Assembly (NCBI GenBank): GCA_016182915.1
Contig: JACPFP010000003.1
Span: forward strand, 454,390 to 506,665
Reading direction: 5' to 3'
Length of the DNA stretch: 52,276 nt
Source: Candidatus Dojkabacteria bacterium
GTDB lineage: Bacteria > Patescibacteriota > Dojkabacteria > SC72
Shown here: in pieces, positions 44,351-46,948 of the stretch
Position numbering within the stretch: position 1 is the stretch's first letter
Layout: each line of letters starts with the position of its first letter
Notes under the pieces: model-generated
What the model was told of the DNA's origin: nothing
Databases searched by the model: none
Seen by the model: only the letters and a program-made list of their open reading frames with translations
Position numbers and translations under genes: made by a program

Positions 44351-46660
44351 TTATATCTGCTCAATCATTAATATACCATCTGCAAGCCCTAACCCTACAA
44401 GTTCCTGCCATACAGATTCCGTAATATATGGGATAAATGGATGCATAATCTTCAAATTCTCTTTGAGAAGATAAACAAGCTCAGAAAGAAGTTCTATTCT
44501 CTTCTCTGAATTTACCTTCTCATCCTTAATTGCACCCTTTACCTCTTCAATCCACTTATCACAGTATTCATGCCAGAAGAACTCTCTAATATCCTCTGTA
44601 CCAAGATTGTACTGATGCTTCCCCAAATATCTTTTTACTCTCGCAATATGAGCGTTACTCTGTGTAACTCTCTCTGACTTTATATTTCCTTCTGCAAGCC
44701 TCTTTGAAATCTCCAAAATCTCTGAATCATCAATATTCATCAGTACAAATCTACTCGCATTCCATATCTTATTTATGAAATTTCTATTTCCTTTAATCTT
44801 CTCCTCTCGAAGTGGTGCATTTGCACCTGGTAGAGCATCGGAGTAGTACCAGAGACGAAGGGAATCAACTCCATATCTATCGAAAAGTTCTATCGGCGAA
44901 ACAGTATTACCCTTGGATTTTGACATCTTTGAACCATCAGGCGCATTGATTATTCCATGTAGAAAAACTGTATGGAAAGGAGTCTTCCCAGTTCTGTAAA
45001 GACTTAACATCATCATTCTTGCACTCCACCAGAAAAGAATATCCCTTCCGTGTACCATAACATCTGTAGGGTAGTATTCATCGAAACCATTAATACTCAT
45101 TGTAGTTGAGAATGGCCACTGACCTGAACTAAACCAGGTATCAAACACATCACTCTCTGATTCAAACTCAAGGTTCTTCTCGTTCTCCCAATCGGGATCT
45201 ACCTCAGGTTTCTCAACCGATGCAAATACCTTTCCACTTCCATGGGCTTCCTTCCCAACCTCTTTCTCAAAATCTTGCGTTGTCTTTCCTGGATTATCTG
45301 CTAGCCAATCATGAAGCTCCTTGCTTCCGCTATACCAGATAGGGATTCTATGTCCCCACCAAAGTTGTCTTGAAATACACCATGGTTCAATATTTTCAAA
45401 GAAATATGTTAGGGCCTTCTGCTGACCATCAGGTATAACCTTGGTATCTCCTTTCTTTAATGCCTCAAGAGCTTTCTGTGCTAATGGTTTTGTATTTACA
45501 TACCACTGGAAGGAGATTATTGGTTGAATTGGGGTATCGCATCTCTCACATACAGCAACCTCATGTTTTATCCTTTCCAATTTTACAAAGAGGCCCAGTT
45601 CATCGAGTTCTTTCACAAGAGCTTTTGAACATTCAAGTGTATCCATTCCTAAAAATCTCTCAGGAATATTTCCACTCATCTTTCCTTCCTCATTGATTAC
45701 GTTGATAATCTCAAGATTATTTCTCTTCGCAATCTCAAAATCGACAGGGGAGTGGGCAGGAGTTACCTTCAACGCTCCGGTTCCAGTTTCAATATCAATA
45801 TCATCATCCGTTATAATAGGTATCTCTCTATTGGCGATTGGAAGAAGAACTTTCTTACCAACAAATTCTTTATATCTATCGTCTTTAGGGCTTACTGCTA
45901 CAGCTGTATCTCCCAACATAGTTTCAGGGCGAGTAGTGGCAACGGTAATTCCCTCAACTCCAAATTTATCCTTAGCTCTCTTTTTATCTTCTTCTTCTAC
46001 AAATGGATATACAATGTATGCGAATATCCCAGGAAGTTCTTTATGGTATGTATCAATATCTGCAAGAGCCGTTCTACAGTTTGGACACTGGTTTATAATT
46101 CTCTTATCTCTATATATTAGTCCGTCATTTAACATTCTAAAGAAGGTGTCGTACACAACAGATGTTAATCTAGGGTCCAGAGTGAAGAATTCTCTATCCC
46201 AATCTGTGGAAAGCCCGATTCGTTTCTCCTGACTCCTAGCATTGTTAGACGCATTTAGACAGAACTCGTAGCAACGTTTATTGAACTCATCCCTTCCTAA
46301 ATCCCATTTATCTATACCCTCTGATCTAAGAATTTTTGTATAAACGCTCTCTGTTTGTATACCAGCATGATCTTTACCTGCGATTAGTAGGGTTGGGTGG
46401 CCTGTCATCCTATTAAACCTTGCCATTGCATCATGAAATGAGTATCCGCATGTATGTCCCATATGTAGATCTCCGTTTGCATTAGGAGGGGGGAGGGTCA
46501 TGACAAAAGGTTTCTTAATCTCTTTATTGGATTTCTCAAGATATTCCTTTACGTTTTCAGGTTTGAAATATCCACTATCTTCCCAAAGTTTATACATTTT
46601 CTCTTCCTGACTCTTTGAATCAAACGCTTTTGGTATTAGCTCTGCTTTACTGCTTTCCAT
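44351..46660 (-). CDS. valS: Valyl-tRNA synthetase, short form
   Basis: 769 residues against the usual ~880-950. Class I motifs: PPPNANGDLHMGHTCGYSF (HMGH) and GSKMSKSKGNTVSPIELFDR. The editing domain with TTRPETMLGDTAVAV and the zinc-type pairs CPNC and CERCD are present, and DVFDTWFSSGQWPFS is the ValRS signature region. The C-terminus stops after HPFIPYITESVWQELVG, so the coiled-coil arm found in most bacterial ValRS is absent. Expression is controlled by a T-box leader of about 250 nt. Two small genes follow. Confidence 0.96.
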   Translation of the reverse strand: MESSKAELIPKAFDSKSQEEKMYKLWEDSGYFKPENVKEYLEKSNKEIKKPFVMTLPPPNANGDLHMGHTCGYSFHDAMARFNRMTGHPTLLIAGKDHAGIQTESVYTKILRSEGIDKWDLGRDEFNKRCYEFCLNASNNARSQEKRIGLSTDWDREFFTLDPRLTSVVYDTFFRMLNDGLIYRDKRIINQCPNCRTALADIDTYHKELPGIFAYIVYPFVEEEDKKRAKDKFGVEGITVATTRPETMLGDTAVAVSPKDDRYKEFVGKKVLLPIANREIPIITDDDIDIETGTGALKVTPAHSPVDFEIAKRNNLEIINVINEEGKMSGNIPERFLGMDTLECSKALVKELDELGLFVKLERIKHEVAVCERCDTPIQPIISFQWYVNTKPLAQKALEALKKGDTKVIPDGQQKALTYFFENIEPWCISRQLWWGHRIPIWYSGSKELHDWLADNPGKTTQDFEKEVGKEAHGSGKVFASVEKPEVDPDWENEKNLEFESESDVFDTWFSSGQWPFSTTMSINGFDEYYPTDVMVHGRDILFWWSARMMMLSLYRTGKTPFHTVFLHGIINAPDGSKMSKSKGNTVSPIELFDRYGVDSLRLWYYSDALPGANAPLREEKIKGNRNFINKIWNASRFVLMNIDDSEILEISKRLAEGNIKSERVTQSNAHIARVKRYLGKHQYNLGTEDIREFFWHEYCDKWIEEVKGAIKDEKVNSEKRIELLSELVYLLKENLKIMHPFIPYITESVWQELVGLGLADGILMIEQI

Positions 46661-46679: not shown

Positions 46680-46735
46680 AAATAAAAAGCCCTCATCTAA
46701 ATAAAAATATACTATATATTTATACTTAGATAAGG
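46680..46735 (-). terminator. T-box attenuator terminator of valS
   Basis: On the minus strand CCTTATCTAA pairs with TTAGATGAGG (plus-strand arms 46726-46735 and 46691-46700; one G-U pair), with a further AAATATA/TATATTT helix inside and a following GCTTTTTATTT tract. The first arm shares CCTT with the antiterminator at 46732-46759, so the two structures exclude each other. Confidence 0.9.
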
Positions 46736-46911
46736 ACGGATATTCCGTGGTACCACCTTATTTCCCTATATTATTACTAATACAGACTTTGTCCCATACT
46801 TTTTAATATGGAGATGCATTTACAGTACATCTTCTGATGAGTTCTACTAAGTTAGTATTAATACTAACTTTTCTTCTCATACCTCCAGAGTGACTGGCTC
46901 TGTACAATCGG
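46680..46911 (-). promoter_or_regulatory. T-box riboswitch controlling valS
   Basis: The leader contains the T-box core AAGGTGGTACCACGG. The antiterminator (46732-46759) folds as AAGG, the 7-nt bulge UGGUACC, ACGG, a small loop, CCGU, CCUU. The bulge UGGU is complementary to the ACCA end of uncharged tRNA, as expected for tRNA(Val) with A73. A 7-bp stem III (CTGTATT/AATATAG) precedes it. Upstream is a stem I region with a perfect 22-nt palindrome at 46849-46870. Uncharged tRNA should stabilise the antiterminator and allow valS transcription. I could not fix the specifier; GUA triplets lie at 46845-46847 and 46826-46828. Confidence 0.9.
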
Positions 46912-46918
46912 TTAGGGA

Positions 46919-46948
46919 ATTATAGCAAAAAAAGCGGTAGCATTACAA
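46919..46948 (-). promoter_or_regulatory. Promoter of the valS T-box transcript
   Basis: On the minus strand TTGTAA (46943-46948), an 18-bp spacer and TGC-TATAAT (hexamer 46919-46924), an extended -10. The -35 is inside the last codons of the upstream gene. The predicted start near 46911 gives a leader of about 250 nt, the right size for a T-box. Confidence 0.82.

Follow-up and report, generated by a model that had tools for sequence, protein, structure and literature searches.

We report that, in an uncultured bacterium of the Candidate Phyla Radiation (CPR) with a tiny genome, the gene for valyl-tRNA synthetase (valS) is very probably preceded by a transcription-attenuating T-box riboswitch, predicted from its sequence to sense tRNA-Val(GAC); we put the probability of this reading at roughly 0.93. 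The full transcriptional T-box leader occupies positions 46916-46680 on the minus strand of the window (the whole stretch of 52,276 nucleotides that was analysed), 5' of valS. It has a conserved structure, a cognate codon and a competing terminator, and the genome holds a cognate tRNA with an encoded CCA. The leader's tRNA reader belongs to Class III, and its output is at the level of transcription. The genome (889 kb in four contigs, about 95% complete) was placed via its nearest named relatives, and close relatives of its valS, at 84-86% identity, are Candidatus Dojkabacteria/WS6 records. The identification of the gene as valS, made in an initial annotation based on the sequence, holds, since two protein-family models match it above their cut-offs (Table 1).

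Organization of the valS leader

Firstly, we located the parts of the leader. The initial annotation had described a T-box core, a 28-nt antiterminator with a UGGU bulge and a mutually exclusive terminator with a U-tract before valS, and all of these are present, on the minus strand. The antiterminator and the terminator exclude each other because GUCCUU (46737-46732) is common to both. The terminator is kept, with altered sequence, in all valS homologues; a rule-based terminator scan missed that of valS, its loop/stem rule being unsuited to it. The extended -10 promoter described along with these elements is present as a sequence, but the quality of the match is by itself no rarer than chance, one occurrence of the pattern being found in the window for 1.6 expected. 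Folded, the leader is more stable than its dinucleotide shuffles (z -5.5). The Stem I region had been noted as compact, with the usual signatures unseen, and an unusual subtype had been suspected. Both impressions were sound: a long Stem I is absent, and an ultrashort Class III stem, overlooked in that first reading, carries the specifier GUC in its apical loop rather than in an internal loop. The S-turn in Stem II was assigned as a sequence pattern, and ileS leaders of relatives carry the equivalent Stem II motif AAGAAA/GUAGA.

Table 1 Features of the valS leader and the regulated gene, in positions of the window
Feature	Position	Strand	Evidence or detail
Promoter TTGTAA, 18 nt, extended -10 TGcTATAAT	46919-46948	-	Consensus match 10/12
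Ultrashort Stem I, 32 nt	46881-46912	-	Two-sided changes in both helices (7 valS leaders; alignment A1); aligned by ileS-built model R1
Stem I base helix ACC/GGU	46912-46910 with 46883-46881	-	
Stem I asymmetric K-turn-like loop GAUUGUA/GA	Between base and upper helix	-	
Stem I upper helix CAGAG/CUCUG	46902-46898 with 46890-46886	-	
Specifier GUC in 7-nt apical loop CCAGUCA (46897-46891)	46892-46894	-	Invariant in 6/6 aligned valS leaders, also in G005; complementary to anticodon GAC
Stem II AUGAG/CUCAU with purine-rich S-turn-like internal loop AAGAA / UUAGUAGAA	46837-46880	-	4 pairs with two-sided changes among valS leaders
Stem IIA/B H-type pseudoknot	46813-46836	-	CAG/CUG (46836-46834 with 46825-46823); GAUGUA/UGCAUC (46831-46826 with 46818-46813)
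Accessory hairpin CCAUAU/GUAUGG, between pseudoknot and Stem III	46794-46811	-	5 pairs with two-sided changes
Stem III hairpin CUGUAUU/AAUAUAG, flanks AAAG 5' and GGAAA 3'	46766-46785	-	valS-leader alignment; Rfam alignment places stem III here
T-box core AAGGTGGTACCACGG	46759-46745	-	1 match in the 52-kb window, 0 in 100 shuffles
Antiterminator AAGGUGGUACCACGGAAUAUCCGUCCUU, 28 nt	46732-46759	-	Rfam alignment, core match, exclusive pairing with terminator
T-box bulge UGGUACC	46755-46749	-	UGGU (46755-46752) complementary to tRNA ACCA end
Competing intrinsic terminator with U-tract UUUUUAUUU	46737-46689; U-tract 46688-46680	-	-22.0 kcal/mol
valS, valyl-tRNA synthetase, 769 aa, regulated gene	44351-46660	-	NCBIfam NF004349 793.9 bits, TIGR00422 769.3 bits, both above cut-off

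The specifier codon and its tRNA

Secondly, we compared the specifier hairpin between leaders. GUC is invariant in the 5'-proximal hairpin of all six family genomes aligned, and the seventh leader, that of G005, likewise has it. Across the valS leaders the stem varies and the codon is constant: the hairpin reads CAGAG-CCAGUCA-CUCUG here, CGAAG-CUUGUCC-CUUCG in G001, UAGAG-CUUGUCA-CUCUA in G002, CAAG-AGUAGUCAC-CUUG in G017 and CAGG-AGUAGUCGU-CCUG in G016. The alignment with relatives thus provided both a covarying Stem I and the specifier. The tRNA-Val anticodons of the genome are GAC and UAC. The 3' end of tRNA-Val(GAC) reads ...GCCCACCA, with CCA encoded in the gene; its anticodon therefore fits the GUC loop and its acceptor end the UGGU bulge. 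The earlier proposal that valS is regulated via tRNA(Val), with a GUN specifier suggested as the feature to look for, is supported by the match between this valine codon and the anticodon of one tRNA-Val encoded in the genome, and a response to charging would be expected by analogy with known T-boxes. Among the 30 of 36 tRNA matches that were identified in the genome, there is no tRNA-Ala, tRNA-Ile or tRNA-Met, so that the tRNA which the ileS T-box of this genome would sense is likewise unseen among them; the missing tRNAs may be interrupted by introns, fall below threshold or lie in gaps.

It is very unlikely that the leader uses a conventional internal-loop specifier, with the hairpin 46880-46837 as Stem I and GUA at 46848-46846 (in UUAGUAGAA) read by tRNA-Val(UAC). 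GUA, too, codes for valine, a tRNA-Val(UAC) with ACCA is present in the genome, and the triplet is kept in 5/6 aligned valS leaders. However, G017 has UUA at this position, and the same GUAGA occurs in ileS leaders (AGUAGAAUCC), where it cannot code for isoleucine; it therefore belongs to the S-turn motif rather than acting as a specifier. In addition, the apical-loop triplet varies with the downstream gene whereas the Stem II-loop GUA does not. As a candidate specifier, GUA was discarded both in the base and in the Stem II loop, on its absence in G017 and its presence in ileS leaders.

The agreement between codon and gene extends beyond valS. Twenty-four CPR leaders with a specifier hairpin were chosen among the best matches of R1 (the ileS-built covariance model, see below), a selection that does not cover every T-box of the CPR; under a fixed rule, which takes the triplet preceding the final base of the loop, we obtained the cognate codon in 21, and in the other three the cognate codon is likewise within the loop but shifted by one base towards the 5' end. 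The loop triplet is GUC before valS, AUC before ileS, and AAC (three leaders) or GAC (three) before genes scoring as non-discriminating aspartate--tRNA(Asn) ligase (ND-AspRS). A non-discriminating aspartyl-tRNA synthetase charges both tRNA-Asp and tRNA-Asn. The ultrashort ND-AspRS T-boxes L166, L171 and L176 versus L168, L172 and L174 differ in their codon, which is AAC (Asn) in some and GAC (Asp) in others; judging by these codons, it is as if the lineages differed in which of the two tRNAs charged by the enzyme they monitor.

Covariance models and compensatory changes

Thirdly, we assessed the leader with covariance models. RF00230, the Rfam T-box model, matches 46971-46729 with E=2.5e-7, but its 40 bits lie below the gathering score of 93, and nothing appeared at the gathering threshold. 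That score is set largely by members with a long Stem I: 10/14 control genomes match at E<=10 and only 2/14 pass it. The second model, R1, was built solely from 16 ileS leaders of relatives. Over the window R1 has a single match, the valS leader (68.3 bits, E=7.9e-14, its E-values being rough), and its alignment sets the AUC of ileS against the GUC of valS. Phylum-wide, 53/380 genomes match R1, some of the matches, such as lysS leaders, being without a specifier hairpin and resting on the shared core. Leader-peptide attenuators likewise place a terminator right before a synthetase gene, and under such an arrangement valS would be controlled through a ribosome or a protein rather than by sensing tRNA. 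This is extremely improbable, as three conserved elements, the core, the bulge and the pseudoknot, are specific to T-boxes, T-box models match, and no valine-codon-rich short ORF was noticed on a non-systematic reading of the leader sequence.

Compensatory changes occur in nearly every helix of the seven homologous valS leaders. The Stem I base helix ACC/GGU becomes GUC/GAC in G017, antiterminator helix A2 changes from ACGG/CCGU to GCGA/UCGC in G017 and G016, and the second pseudoknot helix varies on both sides (ACCU/AGGU in G017, GGUA/UACC in G002), the equivalent pseudoknot of the ileS leaders covarying as well. The accessory hairpin is missing in G017 and is thus lineage-specific. In alignment A1, 14 pairs show two-sided changes, against a shuffled mean of 5.0 and with 0/500 shuffles reaching this number, in a control that ignores relatedness and with a structure read from these same sequences; the few, phylogenetically dependent valS leaders limit such statistics. 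In the same alignment 88.7% of cells are paired, versus 35-51% when partners are slid. The 16 ileS leaders, which have the same architecture, are paired at 94.1% versus 34-52% slid, with 10 two-sided pairs versus 5.6 shuffled. In a manual alignment of the seven leaders, helix pairing is almost full within species, and the variable helices pair at 56-83% when strands are swapped between species. The sliding control and the independent model R1 are safer arguments than the shuffles. The leader thus has both covariance-model matches and compensatory changes. That it is a decayed, non-functional T-box remnant, as the sub-threshold Rfam score and the short Stem I could suggest, has a negligible probability, nearly all helices carrying compensatory substitutions with the specifier invariant and the terminator kept across six genera.

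For a tRNA-sensing T-box, the course of events can be proposed on the model of known T-boxes, from which tRNA binding, the sensing of charging and the control of termination are borrowed. Transcription would start at about 46914 and the ultrashort Stem I would be made first, its apical loop displaying GUC. The anticodon of deacylated tRNA-Val(GAC) would pair with GUC and, because there is no elbow-binding apical module, the purine-rich S-turn of Stem II and the IIA/B pseudoknot would brace the codon-anticodon duplex. Pairing of the tRNA 3' ACCA with the UGGU bulge would then stabilise the antiterminator, and the polymerase would continue into valS. Charged tRNA would be unable to stabilise it in this way, so the terminator would form and valS expression would be low.

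T-boxes in the genome, the family and the CPR

The genome contains at least eight T-boxes. Seven are found by RF00230 at E<1e-6, before argS, trpS, tyrS, aspS, lysS, valS and proS; the eighth, before ileS (L170), was added by R1, and the identity of ileS was confirmed. RF00230 matches at E<=1e-3 in 26/32 genomes of the family and at E<=1e-4 in 126/380 sampled CPR genomes, thirteen of which are above the gathering score; the idea of a transferred element, raised in the initial annotation, is unsupported by these counts as regards the switch type. Among the control genomes, Bacillus, Lactococcus, Corynebacterium, Thermus and Deinobacterium responded in both searches, and E. coli, Caulobacter, Synechococcus, Bacteroides and archaea gave no response at the search threshold. 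The valS T-box is patchy, being found in 7 genomes of the family; there is none in the valS leaders of L011-L015, nor in most other family valS leaders inspected. The valS copy may have derived from an ileS T-box by a change of specifier. At G005:C10:7545-8180 (L092, L127), a 153-aa ORF lies between the valine T-box and valS.

Other T-boxes and synthetases showed further arrangements. At G000:C4:205044-208261 of the genome studied here (L001, L046; also L054, L077), a T-box is directly followed by tRNA-Arg(UCU), tRNA-Arg(GCG), tRNA-Arg(UCG) and then argS; G000 and G001 share this order, and the T-box of G007 is followed by the same three tRNA genes. The arg T-box may therefore control genes for tRNAs of the kind that it senses. 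TATAAT lies between its terminator and the first tRNA in G000, G001 and G007, and the tRNA-Arg genes may also have their own promoter. In L051 (G004:C37) and L053 (G027:C24), a tRNA-Tyr(GUA) gene lies 3' of a long T-box and is itself followed by a protein; that of L051, the one of the two that was scanned, has no NCBIfam match at E<=1e-10. Very short T-box leaders, with about 60 nt from the promoter-like sequence to the T-box core, precede aspS-like genes in L087 (G031:C40) and L089 (G017:C1) and are possibly minimal T-boxes without a recognisable Stem II. Among the synthetases of the genome, AspRS (L049:5133-7016) has a YbaK-like C-terminus (NCBIfam match at 478-616), LysRS (L050:4851-6857) about 170 additional C-terminal residues and ArgRS (L046:6545-9151) about 300 additional N-terminal residues.

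Comparison with known T-boxes

According to earlier work, T-boxes are abundant in Firmicutes alone and confined to few phyla (PMC2494555). Our literature search returned no paper on T-boxes in CPR, Patescibacteria or Dojkabacteria, most subscription journals lying outside its coverage, so that earlier reports may exist. As one third of the sampled CPR genomes have a T-box, these streamlined, probably host-dependent bacteria appear to track amino acid supply through tRNA. We consider it likely that in a CPR-wide T-box subclass an ultrashort Class III reader without IDTM is coupled to the termination of transcription, and that changes of the apical-loop codon have altered the specificity of this subclass (Val, Ile, Asn, Asp). 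If so, the elbow-binding Stem I would be dispensable for co-transcriptional tRNA sensing, and T-boxes would be a major regulatory system of CPR bacteria. The specifier also serves as a functional annotation, for example AAC and GAC before the gene of a dual-specificity aspartyl-tRNA synthetase. A long Stem I has been said to be necessary in transcriptional T-boxes, where tRNA binding has to precede the arrival of the polymerase at the terminator (PMC7583486); since the ultrashort CPR leaders lack it, this kinetic idea becomes directly testable.

With Class I transcriptional T-boxes (RF00230; type B. subtilis tyrS), the valS leader shares the UGGN bulge, the antiterminator/terminator switch and the position 5' of a synthetase gene. 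Unlike these, it lacks a long Stem I, an apical double T-loop module (IDTM) and an internal-loop specifier, and the Rfam alignment leaves most of its Stem I region unmatched. The T-box before tyrS in this genome (G000:C2:33800-33972) is alike in organism and switch type but, read by eye, has a long Stem I, an apparent internal-loop specifier UAC and a conserved distal loop. The long and the ultrashort architecture therefore coexist in one genome.

Class III T-boxes have a short Stem I without IDTM, a specifier in a 5-6 nt apical loop and a required Stem II, and Classes III and IV regulate mostly translation (PMC10482949). The valS leader resembles the Class III type of Nocardia farcinica and Mycobacterium tuberculosis ileS in its short IDTM-free Stem I, its apical-loop specifier, its Stem II with S-turn, its IIA/B pseudoknot, its Stem III and its T-box discriminator. 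It differs in its loop of 7 nt instead of the 5-6 nt described, in the atypical form of its K-turn (GAUUGUA/GA), in its valine specificity (Ile, Asn and Asp in relatives) and in its CPR host. It also has an intrinsic terminator with a U-tract, whereas Class III acts mostly on translation, by sequestering the Shine-Dalgarno sequence. Exceptions to this 'mostly' are possibly already known to specialists, and we claim the valS leader as a new variant, not a new kind, of T-box.
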